Shown here in pieces: positions 5,587-42,294 of a stretch of 52,676 bases of DNA; the first letter of the stretch is position 1; the number at the start of each line of letters is the position of its first letter. Below the pieces are notes generated by a model. That model did not search any database. It saw only the letters and a program-made list of their open reading frames with translations, and had not been told where the DNA came from. Where the stretch lies: positions 1 through 52,676 of the forward strand of contig JACQFF010000031.1 of assembly GCA_016200205.1 (NCBI GenBank), given 5' to 3'. Made by a program: the position numbers and the translations under genes. The stretch comes from Planctomycetia bacterium (GTDB lineage: Bacteria > Planctomycetota > Planctomycetia > Pirellulales > PALSA-1355).

Positions 5587-7563
5587 ATGTCCGGCGACAC
5601 GTCATCCAAACCCGCCCCAGGCCCCACGGTCGCCGGCGGCCTGCTTGCGCCCTGGCATGTGGGACAACTGCCGCCGCCGCCGGCATCGGGCTGGCGAGTC
5701 TGGGTCGGATTGCTCGGGCCGGGGGTCGTGCTGGCGGGCACTTCGATCGGTTCGGGCGAATGGCTGTTTGGACCGGCGGTCAGCGCTCAGTACGGCGGCA
5801 CGGTCTTATGGCTGGCGTCGATCAGCATCATTTTGCAGGTTTTTTGCAATCTGATGATGATGCGCTACACCGTTTACTGCGGCGAGCCAATCATTGTCGG
5901 CGGGTTGCGCACCCGGCCGGGTCCCGCGTTCTGGATCGGCGCATACCTTATTTTGGATATCTCCTCGATCTGGCCATACAACGCTTCGAATGCCGCCGTG
6001 CCGCTGGCCGCCGCCATCCTGGGCCATCTGCCGGGCGAAAGCTCTCTGCAGATCGCCGGCCATCTGATGACCGAATCGCAATTGGTGCGCGGCTTGGGAT
6101 TCGCGATTTTCATTCTGGCCTTCGTGCCGTTGATCTTCGGCGGCACGGTCTATCGCATGCTCGAAAAAATCATGAGCTTGAAGCTCGTGCTCGTGTTGGG
6201 CTATTTGACCTTCATGGCCCTGTTCATGGTTTCGCCGCGCGTGGGTTGGGAAGTGTTCAGCGGTTTTTTCCGCTTTGGTGATTATCCGCAGCGGGCCGAT
6301 ACGATCCTGGTCGACCGGCATTTCGCGCTAACCGTACACGAACAAGACAACACGTATGTGATCAAGGGCACCAAGGAACCGACTGGGCCGATCATCGGTG
6401 AATTTCGCATCAATGGCGTCGCGCAGCCAAAAGTTCTGTCCGATGATCTGAAGCCAAAACGCGACACCCTAGTCGTTCAAGCCGAAGGCATGCTACATTC
6501 CGACGAATTCTACTTCGAGACGCGGACCGAATCGGGCACCGTGCTTTCCGGGCATGGCACGGTAAACAACGGATGGCAGCCGACCGAATTCGCAATCACC
6601 GCCGTCAGCGGCGAACGACGCACGTATGCACGGCTTGAAGACGTGCCCTTGGAATTTCGCCGCACGCTCGAAGAGTTGATCATTCATCAGGGTGTCGAGC
6701 ACAAGAGTTTGTGGGGCTATTTTCGCCAATACGGCCGGCTGCCGGAGTTGGACTGGTTCACACTGGTGGCCTTTGCCGCGATTGCCGGGTCCGGCGGGTT
6801 GGCCAATACGCTGTTTTCCAATTACACGCGCGACAAGGGCTGGGGCATGGGCGCCGCGGTGGGCGCGATTCCCAGCGCCATCGGCGGCCTGCCGATTTCG
6901 CTCTCGCACGTCGGCGAAGTCTTTCCCATCGATCCACCGAACCTCAATCGCTGGAAAGGCTGGATCCGCCACATCGTCCGCGATCAAACGGCCATCTGGA
7001 TGATGGCGTCATTTATCGGCATGGCGCTGCCCTGTATGTTGTCGCTGGAATTCATTCGCAATGCGACCGTGGCCGGCGATCGGGTCGCGGCCATGACGGC
7101 AGAGGGCATCGCAACGCGCTATCCGCAGTACGGCGGCCTGTTCTGGACGTTGACCTTGTTGTGTGGCTTTCTCGTGTTGGCCCCAGGCCAAATCAGCGTC
7201 GGCGATCAGATTGCTCGTCGCTGGACCGACATTGCTTGGACGGCCAGCAGTCGCCTCAAACGAATGGGCGGCACGCACGTGAAGTACGTCTATTACAGTA
7301 TCTTGGGCGTTTACGCCTTTTGGGGTCTGTTCGTTTTGTGGCGGTTGCCGGCCCTCGACATCGCGAAAATCGGAGCCGTGTTGGGCAATGTCGCGTTGGG
7401 TTTTTCGGCCTTGCACGCTCTCTATGCCAACCGCGCGCTATTGCCCAAGGAATTGCAGCCTCACTGGCTGCTGCAAATCGGCGTCGTTCTGTGCGGGATC
7501 TTTTTTATTGGCATCAGCGTGGTGGTGATAGTGGACGTGGTCAACACGTTGAAACTTTTTTGA
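5587..7563 (+). CDS. Nramp-like membrane transporter with inserted soluble domain
   Basis: A 658-residue polytopic membrane protein distantly resembling the Nramp/APC-fold divalent-metal transporters. The first helix region (GLLGPGVVLAGTSIGSGEW) aligns in position with Nramp TM1, but the metal-binding DPGN motif is replaced by GTSIGSGEW and no MPH motif of TM6 is visible, so the substrate is unknown. Hydrophobic segments run to about residue 235, then a hydrophilic beta-rich domain of about 135 residues (236-371) interrupts the membrane part. The membrane part resumes with FAAIAGSGGLANTLFSNYTR. The second paralogue (24702-26495) carries a different insert at the same point. The ATG at 5587 has only a weak ribosome site. 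The stop is 9 bases before the dehydrogenase gene, suggesting one operon. Confidence 0.85.
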   Translation: MSGDTSSKPAPGPTVAGGLLAPWHVGQLPPPPASGWRVWVGLLGPGVVLAGTSIGSGEWLFGPAVSAQYGGTVLWLASISIILQVFCNLMMMRYTVYCGEPIIVGGLRTRPGPAFWIGAYLILDISSIWPYNASNAAVPLAAAILGHLPGESSLQIAGHLMTESQLVRGLGFAIFILAFVPLIFGGTVYRMLEKIMSLKLVLVLGYLTFMALFMVSPRVGWEVFSGFFRFGDYPQRADTILVDRHFALTVHEQDNTYVIKGTKEPTGPIIGEFRINGVAQPKVLSDDLKPKRDTLVVQAEGMLHSDEFYFETRTESGTVLSGHGTVNNGWQPTEFAITAVSGERRTYARLEDVPLEFRRTLEELIIHQGVEHKSLWGYFRQYGRLPELDWFTLVAFAAIAGSGGLANTLFSNYTRDKGWGMGAAVGAIPSAIGGLPISLSHVGEVFPIDPPNLNRWKGWIRHIVRDQTAIWMMASFIGMALPCMLSLEFIRNATVAGDRVAAMTAEGIATRYPQYGGLFWTLTLLCGFLVLAPGQISVGDQIARRWTDIAWTASSRLKRMGGTHVKYVYYSILGVYAFWGLFVLWRLPALDIAKIGAVLGNVALGFSALHALYANRALLPKELQPHWLLQIGVVLCGIFFIGISVVVIVDVVNTLKLF

Positions 7564-7572
7564 GAGATACGC

Positions 7573-9966
7573 ATGAGCGCGACGATTGATCGGCCGGCCG
7601 CTGGCTCGCCGGGAGAGCCCATCTTCGAAACCCGCACGCTGCTCGGGTTGTATGAGCAGATGATGCTCATTCGCCGTTTTGAGTTGACGGCTCAGGACGT
7701 CTATAAAAAGGGCGAGATGCCCGGCTTTATTCACTTGTATCTCGGTGAAGAGGCAACGGCCGTGGGCGTCTGCGCGCACTTGCGACGCGATGATTGGATC
7801 ACCAGCACGCATCGCGGCCACGGCCACGCGTTGGCCAAGGGCGTGCCGCCCGAAGAGGTCCTGGCCGAATTGTACGGCAAGGCCGGCGGTTGTTGCGGCG
7901 GGCGCGGCGGGAGCATGCACCTGTATAAACTTGACGTCGGCTTGTTCGGCACCAATGGATTCGTCGGAGGCGGCTTGCCGGCCACGGTCGGCTTGGGTTT
8001 AAGCGCTCGCACGCGGGCCACCGACCAGGTTGCCGTCGCCTTTTTCGGCGATGGGGCGGTCAACCACGGGGCATTTCACGAATCGTTGAACTTCGCCGGA
8101 GTGCAAAAGCTGCCGGTGGTGTTCGTGTGCGAGAATAATCATTACGCGACCGCCACTCCGCTGACGATGGCCACTCTCAACACGGACGTGGCCACCAAGG
8201 CCGCGGCCTACGGCATTCCTGGAGTGGCCGTGGACGGCAACGACGTGTTGGCGGTGTGGGAAGTGACGCGTCAAGCGGTCCAGCGGGCCCGATCCGGCGG
8301 CGGGCCCACCTTGATCGAGGCCAAAACCTATCGCGTCGTAGGCCATCACGAGGGCGATCCGCTGACTGGCACTTATCGCTCGCAAGAAGAGCTCGACACC
8401 TGGAGGGCACGTTGCCCCATCGCCACCTTCCGCAAGAAATTGCTCGCCGAAGGCCGCGCCACCGCCGAGCAGCTCGACAAAATCGACGGCGAGGTTGAAG
8501 CAAAGATCCTGCATGCGGTCGAGTTTTCGCGCAAATCGCCCGCGCCCGATCCAGCTTGCGCCAACGATCACGTGTGGGCCGAGCCGTTGCATCCGCGCGT
8601 CGCATCCGCGCCGGCCAATGCGGAAACAAAAGTGCAATCCTGGCTCGAGGCGGTGCGCGATGGAATTGCAGAAGAGATGCGCCGCGACCGGCATATCGTC
8701 TACCTGGGCGAGGGCACGGGAGAACGTGGCGGCAGCTTCGCACATACGAAAAACCTGTGGCACGAGTTCGGCGCCGAGCGCATGATCGATACGCCGATTT
8801 GCGAGTTGGGCTTCACTGGGGCGGCGGCCGGTGCAGCGGCCAGCGGTTGTCGGGCCGTGGCCGACGTGATGTTCGCCGACTTCATGTTCGAGGCCGCTTC
8901 GCAAATCATCGAACAAGCGGCCAAGCTCCGCTACATGAGCAACGGCCAAACCAGCGTGCCGATGATCGTGCGGGCTGCCTGGGGGACCATCAAAAACACA
9001 GGCCCGCATCATAGCGGGAGCTACCATCCGATTTGGGCCCATTGCCCGGGCCTGATCGTGGTGATTCCCTCGACTCCCGCCGATGCCAAGGGATTGTTCA
9101 AAACCGCGCTGCGGGCCCACGACCCGGTGATTTTCTTCGAGCCCAAGGCTCTGTTCTCAAGCAAAGGGCCGGTGCCTGTCGGCGAACACTTTGTGCCGTT
9201 CGGCGTCGCCAACATCGTCCGCGCGGGGACCGATTTGACGATCGTCTCCTGCGGCTCGCCCGTTCACCGCTGCTTGGATGCGGCCGAGCAACTCGAACAA
9301 CATGGCATCTCGTGCGAAATCGTCGATCTGCGTACAATCGTGCCGCTCGACGTCGAGACCGTAATCCGCAGCGTGGCCAAGACGGGCCACTTGCTGGTGG
9401 TCGACGAGGCTTTTTCGATGTGCGGCATCGGCGCGGAACTGGCGGCGGTGATGATGGAGCACGCGTTCGAAAAACTCGACGCTCCAGTCGGCCGATTGCA
9501 TACCGACCCGGTGGGGCACCCTTTCAGTCCGGCGCACGAAAACGCCGTGGTGGTCTCGGTCGAGAAGATCATTTCGGCGGCCAAGGCGGTCATGGCCGGC
9601 CGGCCGGAGATTCCGCGACGATTGCGGGCCACTGTGGCAAAGAAGTCCGCGGCCGCTCCGCTGAGACGCTCTGTCGGCGCGCCTCCAGCGAAGTTTCCGC
9701 GGCCGGCCCCGACTGCCGACGCATCGAGCGTGCCGCTGGTGATGCCCAATCAAGACCTGACGATCAACGAGGCCCGGATAATTCAATGGCTCAAGCAGGT
9801 CGGCGATCCGGTGGCCAAAGACGAGCCGGTCGTGGAGGTGGAAACCGACAAAGCGGTGATGACCGTCGACGCGCCGGTTGCTGGCCACTTGGCGGAGATC
9901 CTGGTATCGCCTACAACCGTGGTCCTGCTGGGTCAGCGGCTCGGCACGATTCGGCGTGACGACTAG
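7573..9966 (+). CDS. Fused E1alpha-E1beta-lipoyl 2-oxoacid dehydrogenase
   Basis: One 797-residue chain holds three parts of a 2-oxoacid dehydrogenase system. Residues about 20-340 are E1alpha, with MMLIRRFE, HRGHGHALAKG and the thiamine-diphosphate motif starting GDGAVNHGAFHESLNFAG at 158 and ending in ENNHYAT. Residues about 350-670 are E1beta (YLGEGTGERGGSFAHTKNL, DTPICELGFTGAAAGAA, MSNGQTSVPMIVRAAWG). A linker rich in Ala and Pro leads to a lipoyl domain at about 720-797 with the lipoylation site VETDKAVMTVDAP (Lys760). It would decarboxylate pyruvate, acetoin or a branched-chain 2-oxoacid; motifs alone do not decide which. No E2 acyltransferase or E3 gene is near. E1alpha-E1beta fusions are known, whereas a lipoyl domain on E1 is uncommon. 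It lies 9 bases behind the Nramp-like gene. Confidence 0.93.
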   Translation: MSATIDRPAAGSPGEPIFETRTLLGLYEQMMLIRRFELTAQDVYKKGEMPGFIHLYLGEEATAVGVCAHLRRDDWITSTHRGHGHALAKGVPPEEVLAELYGKAGGCCGGRGGSMHLYKLDVGLFGTNGFVGGGLPATVGLGLSARTRATDQVAVAFFGDGAVNHGAFHESLNFAGVQKLPVVFVCENNHYATATPLTMATLNTDVATKAAAYGIPGVAVDGNDVLAVWEVTRQAVQRARSGGGPTLIEAKTYRVVGHHEGDPLTGTYRSQEELDTWRARCPIATFRKKLLAEGRATAEQLDKIDGEVEAKILHAVEFSRKSPAPDPACANDHVWAEPLHPRVASAPANAETKVQSWLEAVRDGIAEEMRRDRHIVYLGEGTGERGGSFAHTKNLWHEFGAERMIDTPICELGFTGAAAGAAASGCRAVADVMFADFMFEAASQIIEQAAKLRYMSNGQTSVPMIVRAAWGTIKNTGPHHSGSYHPIWAHCPGLIVVIPSTPADAKGLFKTALRAHDPVIFFEPKALFSSKGPVPVGEHFVPFGVANIVRAGTDLTIVSCGSPVHRCLDAAEQLEQHGISCEIVDLRTIVPLDVETVIRSVAKTGHLLVVDEAFSMCGIGAELAAVMMEHAFEKLDAPVGRLHTDPVGHPFSPAHENAVVVSVEKIISAAKAVMAGRPEIPRRLRATVAKKSAAAPLRRSVGAPPAKFPRPAPTADASSVPLVMPNQDLTINEARIIQWLKQVGDPVAKDEPVVEVETDKAVMTVDAPVAGHLAEILVSPTTVVLLGQRLGTIRRDD

Positions 9967-24701: not shown

Positions 24702-26495
24702 TTAGAAGTAGGGCCGAGCGGTCTCGATGGCCGTGATGGTCGCCAGCGAGAAGAAAAACACGCCGCCGCCGGCCAGACCGAGCCGGACAAACCAACCGGG
24801 CCGCAGCTCTTTGGGTAATAGCGTCAGGTTGATGACCAGCGTGTGGATGCAGCTAAAGCCCAAGGCAAAATTCATGATGTTGGTGCCGATCTTCAACAGC
24901 GCCCTCGGTTTGCCGATCGACAGCAAAATCAATCCGATCGCCATGTAGCCGAGGAGCACTCCGAAGTAGAGCGTTTTGATGTGTTTTGGGTCCCACTCGC
25001 GCAACCGCCGGCTCGAGGTCCAAACCACGTCGACCCAACGCCGAATGACGCCGTCGGCACTAGTGGCCATGGCGGGCGCCAGCACCAAGAATCCGCACAA
25101 GAGAGTCAGGTACCAGATGATCGAACCGGCCGTCGCGCCCCAAGATTCGGCAACGGCGCCGCTCACGCCATCGGCCGTCATTCCCGCGGCGTACCATTCG
25201 CTGACCTCGGTGCCGCGGCGCAAAAACTGCACCGACAGCATGCTGGGCAGCGCCATTCCGAGAAAACAGGCCGGCATCCAGACCACCAACTGGTCGCGCG
25301 CCACGTGGCGATACCAATGCCGCCAACGGACGAGCGAGTCCTTCGTGACTTGAAAGACCATGCCGACGTGGGACAGCTCGATGTTATGGCCGCCGACGAC
25401 GCTGGGGATTGCGCCGACATAATGTCCCATGCCCCACCCCTGATCGCGCGTGTAATTGCTGATCGGCGCGTTCGAGAGTCCCCCGCAGCCCGCGATGGCG
25501 GCGAAGGCGGCCAACAGCGCGATCGTGCTGAAATCGATGTCGGGAAACGACCGGCCCTCGAAGAGGGCGACGAAGACATTCTCCGTGCTGTCGCCATCGC
25601 GAATGCCGTCCTTGTCGACATCCTCGAATTTGTCGGGCTTGCCGTCGCCGTCGATGTCGGTCCAAGCATCGGGCTTGCCGTCGCCGTCGGTGTCGATGCT
25701 GGGCGGAAGGGCCCGCTCGACGATGTCCAAATGACCATCCTTGTCCCAGTCCTCGCCCGGATCGAGCACGCCGTTGCCATTGAGGTCTTCGCCCCGCTGC
25801 ACCGGAACGGTTCCGAATTTGAAGAAGCCGCTGATAATTTCGGACCAAGTTTGCGGGCTGGAAAAAAAGATCGCGAGAAAAAGCAAAAACCCCAGCACCG
25901 TGACAATCTTGAAGGACATGATGAGCTTGAGCGTGTCGTAAATCTTGCCGCCGAAGACGAGTGGAGCCATCGCCAAGAAGAACACGAAAAAGCCCAATCC
26001 GCGCACCAGCGATTCGTCCTGGGACCCCGAGGGAATACGGCCCAAATAGACCGCGGCCAATGGCGTGGCGGCGTTGGCGGCCAGATAGGGAAACACGGCG
26101 CCGAAATCGAGGAGCAAATACATGAAGAGCCAAAACCGCGGTCCGGGCAGCGTGCGAAATTTTCCGGTGAAGATCGGCTCGCCGGTGTAGAGCGCGTACC
26201 GGCTGATTTCCAGGTTGTAAAATACCTGGCCCAAAATGCTCAGCGTGGCCAGCCACATCAGCCCGCCGCCATAGCGGGCCGTCACTGCCGGGCCGGCCAG
26301 CCATTCGCCGCCGCCGATCGCCGATCCGCCCACGAGCAATCCCGGCCCGAGCATGGCGAACCAATTCTTCCAAGTAAACTTTGGCGCGGCGACGAGCATG
26401 CCGGTATTCCAACGCGGCATGTCATGCGAGCCGGGATAGGGGGCGACAAAGGGAGCCGGCTGCTTCGTGGCAGGCGCGATCGACGCTTCGGCCAT
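24702..26495 (-). CDS. Nramp-like membrane transporter with calcium-loop insert
   Basis: A 597-residue paralogue of the transporter at 5587-7563: MLGPGLLVGGSAIGGGEWL replaces Nramp TM1, and FAAIAGCGGLSNAPISNYTR matches after the insert. The DPGN and MPH metal motifs are again absent. At residues about 235-302, after SGFFKFGTVP, five acidic loops follow one another: DLNGNGVLDPGED, DWDKDGHLDIVE, DTDGDGKPDAWTD, DIDGDGKPDKFED and DVDKDGIRDGDS. They have the DxDxDG spacing of dockerin, EF-hand and thrombospondin-3 calcium sites. Substrate and sensing role are unknown. ATG 26495 (MAEASIAPATKQ) is preferred because it avoids overlap with the SDR gene and gives an N-terminal tail like that of the paralogue. 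Confidence 0.87.
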   Translation of the reverse strand: MAEASIAPATKQPAPFVAPYPGSHDMPRWNTGMLVAAPKFTWKNWFAMLGPGLLVGGSAIGGGEWLAGPAVTARYGGGLMWLATLSILGQVFYNLEISRYALYTGEPIFTGKFRTLPGPRFWLFMYLLLDFGAVFPYLAANAATPLAAVYLGRIPSGSQDESLVRGLGFFVFFLAMAPLVFGGKIYDTLKLIMSFKIVTVLGFLLFLAIFFSSPQTWSEIISGFFKFGTVPVQRGEDLNGNGVLDPGEDWDKDGHLDIVERALPPSIDTDGDGKPDAWTDIDGDGKPDKFEDVDKDGIRDGDSTENVFVALFEGRSFPDIDFSTIALLAAFAAIAGCGGLSNAPISNYTRDQGWGMGHYVGAIPSVVGGHNIELSHVGMVFQVTKDSLVRWRHWYRHVARDQLVVWMPACFLGMALPSMLSVQFLRRGTEVSEWYAAGMTADGVSGAVAESWGATAGSIIWYLTLLCGFLVLAPAMATSADGVIRRWVDVVWTSSRRLREWDPKHIKTLYFGVLLGYMAIGLILLSIGKPRALLKIGTNIMNFALGFSCIHTLVINLTLLPKELRPGWFVRLGLAGGGVFFFSLATITAIETARPYF

Positions 26496-26571: not shown

Positions 26572-27366
26572 CTACCAATCACGTGTATAACCGGCCGTCC
26601 AACCTCCGTCTACCGTCAGGACCGCCCCATTAATATAGCTGGCCTCCGGCGAGACGAGAAACGCTACCGCGTGGGCAATCTCTTCCGGCGTTCCAGGCCG
26701 CCCGAGGGGCACGTGCGAGAGCAAACTCCTGGCGATCTCGGTCTTGTCCCCTTCCGGTCCATAGAAAAGCGCGCGTGTGCCGCGCGTAATAATCGAACCC
26801 GGGGCGACACAGTTGGAAAGGATTCCTTGGGGGCCCAATTCGAGCGCCATCGAGCGGGTGAGATTCACCACTCCGGCTTTGGCCGCCACATAAGCGCTTT
26901 GCAGCCGCAGCGGCACGAGGCCCGCGACCGAGGCGATGTTCACGATCCGCCCGCCACCCCGCTTGATCATGCCCGGCACGATGGCCTTGCTGACGACGAA
27001 CACGCCGGTCAAATCGACCCGCAGAATCCGGTTCCAATCCTCTTCGGCATACTCGTGGATCGCGCGGCGTTCTTTCGACGTATTGATGCCGGCGTTGTTC
27101 ACGAGAATGCCGATCGGGCCTAATTGCTCGTGAATTTCTTTTTGCACGGCGCCCAGCCGGGCCGGATCGGCGACATCGCCCGCCAGCGCGATCACGCGGC
27201 TTCCCCGGGCGGAGATTTCGCTGGCGGTTCGCGCGACCGAATCGGGCTCGAGGTCGAGGATCGCGACGGCCGCGCCGTTTTCGGCCAATCGCTCGACGAT
27301 TGCCCGGCCAATTCCCTGGGCGCCGCCCGTGACGAGCGCCACTTGGCCTTTCAGGTCAACTTGCAT
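26572..27366 (-). CDS. SDR family NAD(P)-dependent oxidoreductase
   Basis: A 264-residue classical short-chain dehydrogenase/reductase of normal length. The cofactor motif is TGGAQGIGRAI near residues 14-24, and LDLEPDS at the end of strand 2, with an acidic residue, favours NAD over NADP. NNAGINTS is at about 90. The catalytic set is IASVAGL (Ser), then YVAAKAG (Tyr-x-x-x-Lys) near 160-166, and the C-terminal INGAVLTVDGGW closes the fold. These features fit 3-oxoacyl-ACP reductase (FabG)-like or sugar/polyol dehydrogenases; the sequence does not decide. It is cytoplasmic. It lies upstream of the second transporter gene on the same strand with a gap of 76 bases, and about 70 bases from the DUF1501 gene. 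Confidence 0.92.
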   Translation of the reverse strand: MQVDLKGQVALVTGGAQGIGRAIVERLAENGAAVAILDLEPDSVARTASEISARGSRVIALAGDVADPARLGAVQKEIHEQLGPIGILVNNAGINTSKERRAIHEYAEEDWNRILRVDLTGVFVVSKAIVPGMIKRGGGRIVNIASVAGLVPLRLQSAYVAAKAGVVNLTRSMALELGPQGILSNCVAPGSIITRGTRALFYGPEGDKTEIARSLLSHVPLGRPGTPEEIAHAVAFLVSPEASYINGAVLTVDGGWTAGYTRDW

Positions 27367-40117: not shown

Positions 40118-41251
40118 TCAGGACCCTGCCAAAGTGGTGTTCAGGTAAAAGGTAATCAAAACAAACAGCGCCACTGTGCCGATGACGATAAACATCACGT
40201 ATTGCCGCAGCTTGCCGGTTTCGGCGCCGTGAAACCACAGCCCGATCGCGTAGATCCAATCGGCGCCCGTGTTCACCAACCCGTCGACGAAGTAGCGATC
40301 GACCAGATCATCCAAGCCGGCCACCATCCGGGTCGCTAGCGCCAAGGAATCGATAAAGCCGTCGATAATCTTTTTGTCGAAGTCAGCGACACGGCGGGCA
40401 ATGAACAGCGCCGGTTGCACGAAGATCGCGTTATAAAGCTCGTCGAAATACCACTTGTGAATCAGGAAGCGGTAAATGGGCCGGAACTGGTTTCGCACCT
40501 CGTTCGGATCGAGAATCCGCAGCCCATAAAAAACCAACGCCAGCAAAAACCCGCACAGCGCGGTGGCCGTGGCTACGTAGGTTGCCGTATCGTGATATGC
40601 GGCGAGGTGTCTGTCGTGCTCGCCAGGGTAGAGCAACTCGCTCAAGAGCACGCCCTTGGCCGCGATGGCTGTACCGGCCGGTCGGGCCTGTTCCAGTAAC
40701 GGCTCCACGCCAAGCCCAAATAAAGTCCAGCCGACGCCAATGGCCAACGCCGCCAGCACGACCAGCGGGTAATACATAACTTTCGGCGCTTCGTGAGCAT
40801 GCTCGTAAATGTGGTGATCGCGCGGCTCGCCCGCAAAGGTCATGAACCACAAGCGGAACATGTAAAATGCAGTCACTGCGGCGCCGGCCGCGGCCACGAA
40901 GAACATTCCGCCGTAGGATGGATTGCTGGCCTTGAACGAGAGCGCCTGCGCGAGAATGGCGTCTTTGGAATAGTGGCCGCTCAGCCCGATCGAAAAAGGA
41001 ACCCCGGCGCCCATAATCGCGAGGCAGCCGACGAGCATCGTGTAAGCGGTCCAGGGCATTTTTTTCCGCAGCCCGCCCATCTTGGTCAGCTCGTTCGTAT
41101 GGCAGGCGTGAATCACGGAGCCGGAGCACATGAACAACAGGCTCTTGAAGAACGCGTGCGTGATCAAGTGGAACATGCCCGCCACCCAGCCGCCGACGCC
41201 CAGCGCGAACATCATGTACCCTAGCTGGCTAACCGTCGAGTAGGCCAGCAC
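40118..41251 (-). CDS. nuoL: NADH-quinone oxidoreductase subunit L, C-terminal fragment of a broken gene
   Basis: The C-terminal 377 residues of NuoL. It opens in mid-domain at LAYSTVSQLGYMMFALGVGG, preceded in frame by FTATDIKRV, which in intact NuoL lies after TM8. It includes HAFFKSLLFMCSGSVIHACH, KMPWTAYTMLVGCLAI and the long amphipathic lateral helix near the end (about 270-340) that runs along the membrane arm. The GTG at 41251 is only the first start-like codon; no gene-like start or ribosome site precedes it. It continues the N-terminal fragment (41221-42294) in another frame with about 70 residues lost between them. Either a real deletion or an assembly fault; alone it should not be functional. 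Confidence 0.85.
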   Translation of the reverse strand: MLAYSTVSQLGYMMFALGVGGWVAGMFHLITHAFFKSLLFMCSGSVIHACHTNELTKMGGLRKKMPWTAYTMLVGCLAIMGAGVPFSIGLSGHYSKDAILAQALSFKASNPSYGGMFFVAAAGAAVTAFYMFRLWFMTFAGEPRDHHIYEHAHEAPKVMYYPLVVLAALAIGVGWTLFGLGVEPLLEQARPAGTAIAAKGVLLSELLYPGEHDRHLAAYHDTATYVATATALCGFLLALVFYGLRILDPNEVRNQFRPIYRFLIHKWYFDELYNAIFVQPALFIARRVADFDKKIIDGFIDSLALATRMVAGLDDLVDRYFVDGLVNTGADWIYAIGLWFHGAETGKLRQYVMFIVIGTVALFVLITFYLNTTLAGS

Positions 41252-42294
41252 GCGCTTGATATCGGTCGCGGTAAAAAGATTCCCACGCCGGCGACTACCA
41301 ACAACCAGTAGGCGTGACGACCCGGGCCGTCCGGACTCCGGTCGTTTCGCCAGGTATCGATTTGCTCATCGGTCGGTTCGACACCGCGAGCAATTTCGGC
41401 CGCGGCGGCCGCTTTGACCATGCCGGTGGGTGCTTCCAGAGCGTAGTGGTTTTCTTTAGCGCGGATCTGGCTGAAGATACCGTGCTCGGCGACTTCAATC
41501 TGCCCGTTGCCGTTGGCGTCGATGTCGCCGAAGGCAAACGTGCCCAGACTGCCGAACAGGGCCATCAGACCAACGATCATGCCGAAGTCGCCGATGCGGT
41601 TGACGATAAACGCCTTGTTCGCCGCCGTCGAAGCACTCTTGCGTTCGATATAAAATCCGATAAGGAAATACGAGCAGATACCGACGAGTTCCCAGAACAC
41701 GAACATCATCGCCATATTGCCGGCGATCACGATGCCCAACATGCTGAAGCAAAACAGCGACATGTATTGGAAGAAGCGGTGGAATCGGCCGTGGCGGTGC
41801 AAGTGCTGACCGTTGGAGAGTCGGACTTCGTGATCGACCACGTCATGCAGTTCGTCGTGCATGTAGCCATAGGAGTAGAAATGGATGCACGTGGCGATGA
41901 TCGTCACCATCGAAAACATCAACACGGTGAGCGAGTCGATGTAGTAGCCGATCGTGATCGAGAGCGAACCGAATTTGCCCAGCGTGTACCAGTCGCCGGT
42001 GATCGGCTTGACGCTCGGTTCGGCGGCGTGCTCCGCGTGGGCCTCATGGGCGGCGACAGCGGCACCGGTTTCGTGATGCGCGGCCGCCGGCAAATCATAA
42101 TTGGGCAGCCACACGCAAAACAGCGAAAAGAGCGACAGCAGGCAGGAGGTCAAAATCGCTCCGGTCGCAAGATAGCCAGCCTTGGATCCGGCCTTGCCCA
42201 TCCGCGGACCGAAAAACACGATCAGCACAAACGAGGCCAACGGCAGCAGCCAGGCCAGACCTAACAATTTGGGTAGTATCGTGACAGGATCCAT
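41221..42294 (-). CDS. nuoL: NADH-quinone oxidoreductase subunit L, N-terminal fragment of a broken gene
   Basis: The N-terminal part of NuoL (357 residues, of which about 338 are genuine). It has YYIDSLTVLMFSMVTIIATC, FHRFFQYMSLFCFSMLGIVI and VFWELVGICSYFLIGFYIER with the conserved Glu. An unusual loop at about 255-325 contains a canonical EF-hand sequence DANGNGQIEVAE (residues 259-270). After YWLLVVAGVGIF the frame runs out through LPRPISSACW to a stop, whereas the correct continuation FTATDIKRVLAYST lies in another frame. The segment with the conserved GKSAQ, LPDAMEGPTPVSAL and His-containing channel residues is absent. Its start codon overlaps the nuoK stop (TGATG), so the two are translationally coupled. 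Confidence 0.88.
   Translation of the reverse strand: MDPVTILPKLLGLAWLLPLASFVLIVFFGPRMGKAGSKAGYLATGAILTSCLLSLFSLFCVWLPNYDLPAAAHHETGAAVAAHEAHAEHAAEPSVKPITGDWYTLGKFGSLSITIGYYIDSLTVLMFSMVTIIATCIHFYSYGYMHDELHDVVDHEVRLSNGQHLHRHGRFHRFFQYMSLFCFSMLGIVIAGNMAMMFVFWELVGICSYFLIGFYIERKSASTAANKAFIVNRIGDFGMIVGLMALFGSLGTFAFGDIDANGNGQIEVAEHGIFSQIRAKENHYALEAPTGMVKAAAAAEIARGVEPTDEQIDTWRNDRSPDGPGRHAYWLLVVAGVGIFLPRPISSACWPTRRLAS

Follow-up and report, generated by a model that had tools for sequence, protein, structure and literature searches.

Strings of calcium-type loops are known from secreted proteins, and the calcium concentration of the periplasm is usually high and steady. In carriers of the LeuT fold, TM6 participates in the outer gate. 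The described systems that come closest to the locus presented here are the SLC11/Nramp transporters, in which an aspartate of TM1 is described as universally conserved (PMC8806188), the thrombospondin type 3 repeats (TSP_3, PF02412; TSP3_bac, PF18884), the FG-GAP repeats and the linear calcium motif Dx[DN]xDG, a class with a strong bias towards the periplasm and the cell exterior, both rich in Ca2+ (Rigden et al., PMC3123361). The open-access literature yielded no report of an insert of such loops in any Nramp protein, and the word 'transporter' was not found in the text of the paper on the linear motif (PMC3123361). Within the window, by which we mean the whole stretch of 52,676 nucleotides (52.7 kb) of planctomycete DNA that was analysed, a string of five loops of this kind lies in a predicted outer loop of an Nramp-like transporter.

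The transporter gene (24702–26495, minus strand) is an intact open reading frame of 597 amino acids starting with an ATG at 26495, an alternative GTG start at 26582 being possible. The Pfam Nramp model gave no match to the host protein; NCBIfam Nramp_1 matched it well above the cut-off of 50 (140 bits, E 9.3e-41) and also matched each of its 54 relatives (54/54). The AlphaFold2 model of the protein, built with 54 homologues (mean pLDDT 85, pTM 0.87), superposes on DraNramp with a Z score of 29.6 over 379 residues, and its best solved matches, namely DraNramp, BfraNramp, human NRAMP1 and EleNRMT, reach Z scores of 28–30 over 365–400 residues. By profile and by Nramp/LeuT fold, the latter as seen in a predicted model, the protein falls within the broad Nramp/SLC11 superfamily, and it can be described as a divergent Nramp-fold transporter: it shares the LeuT fold over about 380 residues with DraNramp, EleNRMT and BfraNramp, but is ~12% identical in sequence and carries a large insert in the loop EL3, between TM5 and TM6.

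The clade also departs from SLC11 at the substrate site. When TM1 is aligned to that of BfraNramp, the window protein has GGGE in place of DPGN; of its 54 relatives, 52 have the same GGGE and the remaining two have GSGE, with G61, G63, E64 and W65 invariant in all 54. The DxxN of the canonical SLC11 metal site is therefore missing from TM1, and the clade lacks both the universal SLC11 aspartate and the DxxG motif of the Mg2+-type NRMT proteins (PMC8806188). In TM6, where canonical SLC11 proteins have AxxM, the sequence assigned by position, less certain, is GGLSN. Without the metal-site motif, the label 'Nramp family divalent metal transporter' given by automatic annotation becomes doubtful for this clade. 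As to clues to the substrate from a conserved gene neighbourhood, no recognised partner was common to the whole set; a UspA-like gene lies upstream of the transporter at six loci only.

The TM5–TM6 loop module, delimited with a 30-sequence alignment and the model, comprises 86 residues (25569–25826, minus strand) between predicted TM5 (residues ~187–211) and TM6 (~322–340), and is edged by short strands at model residues 229–233 and 302–306. Its five DxDxDG/DxNxNG loops span 25587–25787 on the minus strand, where they read in the order loop 1 (DLNGNGVLDPGE, 25752–25787; ligand pattern D1 N3 N5 D9 E12), loop 2 (DWDKDGHLDIVE, 25716–25751; D1 D3 D5 D9 E12), a linker of seven residues, RALPPSI (25695–25715), loop 3 (DTDGDGKPDAWT, 25659–25694), loop 4 (DIDGDGKPDKFE, 25623–25658), which is degenerate or absent in many homologues, and loop 5 (DVDKDGIRDGDS, 25587–25622), which is nearest TM6 and whose aspartates are invariant in the 30-sequence alignment. 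The codons of the first aspartates start at 25787, 25751, 25694, 25658 and 25622, so that loops of 12 residues each abut exactly in the arrangement 12+12, linker of 7, 12+12+12. All five loops of the original prediction, which had left the strand unstated, are thus present as quoted. Its description of them as interrupting a polytopic transporter is equally sound, in that insert-free homologues connect the same two helices by a short loop. When the insert's own residues were shuffled 200,000 times, five motifs never arose and the maximum, four, was reached in 12 shuffles; in the rest of the window, over all six frames, the motif turns up as isolated matches only. Chance or an out-of-frame artefact is ruled out by the shuffling test together with the codon and selection comparison described below.

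In the whole-protein model the insert is ordered (pLDDT ~81–92) and contains no helix, and it is likewise free of helices when modelled alone (pTM 0.53). An identity with EF-hand or dockerin sites, whose pattern had been invoked for the loops, is not supported, because the models are helix-free and an exact period of 12 residues leaves no room for flanking helices; the Pfam EF-hand models gave E values of 0.66 or worse. The proposed likeness to thrombospondin-3 stands in part. The insert shares with these repeats the tandem helix-free DxDxDGxxD loops, the expected wrapping around Ca2+ and an expected extracytoplasmic setting, but differs from them in its strict 12-residue period, its lack of cysteines, its position inside a membrane transporter and its matches to TSP_3 and TSP3_bac, which stay far below the cut-off (E 4.8 for both, ~7.5 bits versus 25). 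Indeed, none of the Pfam calcium-repeat models reaches its cut-off with the window insert. The module can be likened to a thrombospondin-3-type calcium wire without cysteines. With the linear Dx[DN]xDG motif it has in common the motif itself, an Asp or Glu a few residues further on and the extracytoplasmic bias. FG-GAP repeats (PF01839) share a DxDGDGxxD calcium motif with the insert, but the match is short and below cut-off (E 3.7e-4 over 11 residues) and neither model contains beta-propeller blades, and the FG-GAP propeller was rejected. A Foldseek search with the insert-alone model (pTM 0.53) returned no usable match, which is not proof of a new fold, and no solved relatives of the insert were found by sequence.

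On which side of the membrane the loops lie can be deduced from the transporter itself. With the insert set aside, the loops of the family contain ~22 lysines and arginines inside versus ~5 outside. Because this bias agrees with the match to the Nramp fold, with its cytoplasmic N-terminus as in Nramp, it is well supported that EL3 would face the outside. The original prediction had remarked that such repeats are usually found in secreted proteins; this is correct insofar as the motif class is normally extracytoplasmic, but the surprise largely vanishes because EL3 should itself lie on the extracytoplasmic side. We consider it reasonably probable, though by no means assured, that the insert is a Ca2+-stabilised extracytoplasmic cap or spacer made of five tandem 12-residue loops in EL3. 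Each loop would most likely fold round one Ca2+ ion from the periplasm, as predicted from its putative ligands, and the string of loops would set as a compact, strongly acidic, helix-free body, its base tied by two short strands, placed next to TM6 on the outside of the transporter. Its role would probably be structural, whether in stabilising the loop, in shaping access or in holding a partner.

A survey of homologues for the loop aspartates, which the original prediction had proposed, bears them out. Among 36 homologues, the putative ligand positions of loops 1 and 2 (positions 1, 3, 5, 9 and 12) are each kept in at least 34; positions 2, 4, 7 and 10 are variable, position 8 is hydrophobic and position 6 is glycine. 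When 30 inserts are aligned, loops 1, 2 and 5 show no or almost no variation at their ligand positions, and loop 4 is often degenerate. A wider set of 307 units from 65 distinct inserts has aspartate at position 9 in 94% and glycine at position 6 in 89%; these units were picked by positions 1, 3 and 5, with positions 6 and 9 playing no part, and the conservation of positions 1, 3 and 5 is taken from the 36-homologue and 30-insert alignments. Across the 65 inserts the commonest unit spacing is 12 residues, and the number of loops per insert is mostly 3–9. The net charge is ~−18 for the window insert and has a median of −16 (range −32 to −9) over the inserts. Such charge would suit an acidic funnel, in which the aspartates gather cations, the substrate among them, around the entrance and specific Ca2+ loops are secondary. 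However, charge alone would need neither the strict spacing nor the glycine at position 6 nor the hydrophobic residue at position 8 of loops 1 and 2, and a cationic substrate is not established for a protein in which GGGE replaces DPGN; we regard this explanation as quite improbable.

The cap or spacer reading is also in keeping with the codon comparison. NG86 estimates with six relatives (seven loci, two of them with identical figures) gave a dN of 0.12–0.27 versus a dS of 0.6–1.3 for the insert, resembling the remainder of the gene. Of 23 ligand residues, 20–22 are unchanged as amino acids, 6–9 of these being encoded by a different, synonymous codon. As judged from these codons, the loop residues are under purifying selection. 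This bears on the possibility that the module is a neutral low-complexity spacer generated by repeat turnover and tolerated as it hangs outside the membrane. Turnover does occur: two homologues that are nearly identical outside the insert (L011 and L021) are 48 residues apart within it, the middle being replaced and the ends kept, while another (L112) has at the insert site a Gly/Ala/Ser-rich spacer devoid of D-loops, and paralogues carry unrelated inserts in the same loop. Yet neutrality is hard to reconcile with a dN well below dS, with ligand residues kept through synonymous changes and with first and last loops that are nearly invariant across two phyla, and we give this explanation little credence.

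D-loop inserts are present in 63 of 102 homologues, from Planctomycetota and Acidobacteriota, and absent from 39. A tree built without the insert, a quick tree with weak support in places, requires at least 12 switches between presence and absence. Nearly all D-loop inserts begin alike, which suggests that they may have had one origin followed by many losses. L114, from a genome of the same family (G296), has no insert, although its two halves share 77% and 68% identity with the window protein, and L079 retains a single loop, DLNGNGIQDADE. Loss of the aspartates in close relatives, which the original prediction had named as an argument against its proposal, was encountered only where the insert is missing altogether, as in L114; insert-bearing relatives keep those of loops 1, 2 and the last. 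With at least 12 changes of presence and loop numbers from 3 to 9, any function of the module would be dispensable, and the module seems to be a genuine accessory cap, but an optional one, and not a core gate.

These changes also weigh on the calcium-regulated gate that the original prediction had offered beside a rigid spacer, in which Ca2+ would stiffen EL3 and switch or tune transport through TM6a. In favour of such a gate, the module feeds into TM6 and its loop 5, closest to that helix, is among its most conserved parts. On the other hand, a gate sits poorly with the removal of the whole insert in close relatives and with the variable loop number, and steady, high periplasmic Ca2+ would keep the sites constantly filled. 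The rigid spacer fits the data better than the gate, and an on/off role for the module is unlikely. A conserved loop string in the outer loop of an Nramp fold offers an opportunity to test whether extracellular Ca2+ shapes a LeuT-fold transporter.

The TM5–TM6 loop, EL3, is a site where modules come and go, repeatedly gained and removed in evolution. In the window, a transporter paralogue (5587–7563, plus strand), with matches over 5608–6294 and 6739–7539, carries in its TM5–TM6 loop a different, D-loop-free insert (~6295–6738), and unrelated inserts in this loop are also found in paralogues elsewhere in the genome. With regard to mobility of the module, no further homologue of the insert was found in its own genome and none in plasmids. 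It is tempting to speculate that the clade is an undescribed Nramp-fold lineage no longer devoted to transition metals, in which the outward EL3 would offer interchangeable soluble modules (calcium wires, a beta-propeller-type insert, other domains) a place to dock and the calcium wire would directly tune TM6, and hence transport, in response to external Ca2+; taken as a whole, this scenario is a long shot.

Some further observations were made on these genomes. In a distant Nramp-like relative (L096, G130:C17:6627-8753), the TM5–TM6 loop has ~280 extra residues with matches to Reg_prop, the two-component regulator propeller. Downstream of the paralogue in the window lies a gene (7573–9966) with E1 dehydrogenase, transketolase and lipoyl domains. 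A NuoL-like gene (40118–42294, minus strand) is read in two frames, split near 41250–41290 by a frameshift or an assembly error, and is intact in a genome of the same genus (L131). Its product contains, in the loop after a helix, an EF-hand-like loop, DIDANGNGQIEVAE (41485–41526, minus strand), at a site where the sequence differs in the same-genus relative (L131) and in L133.
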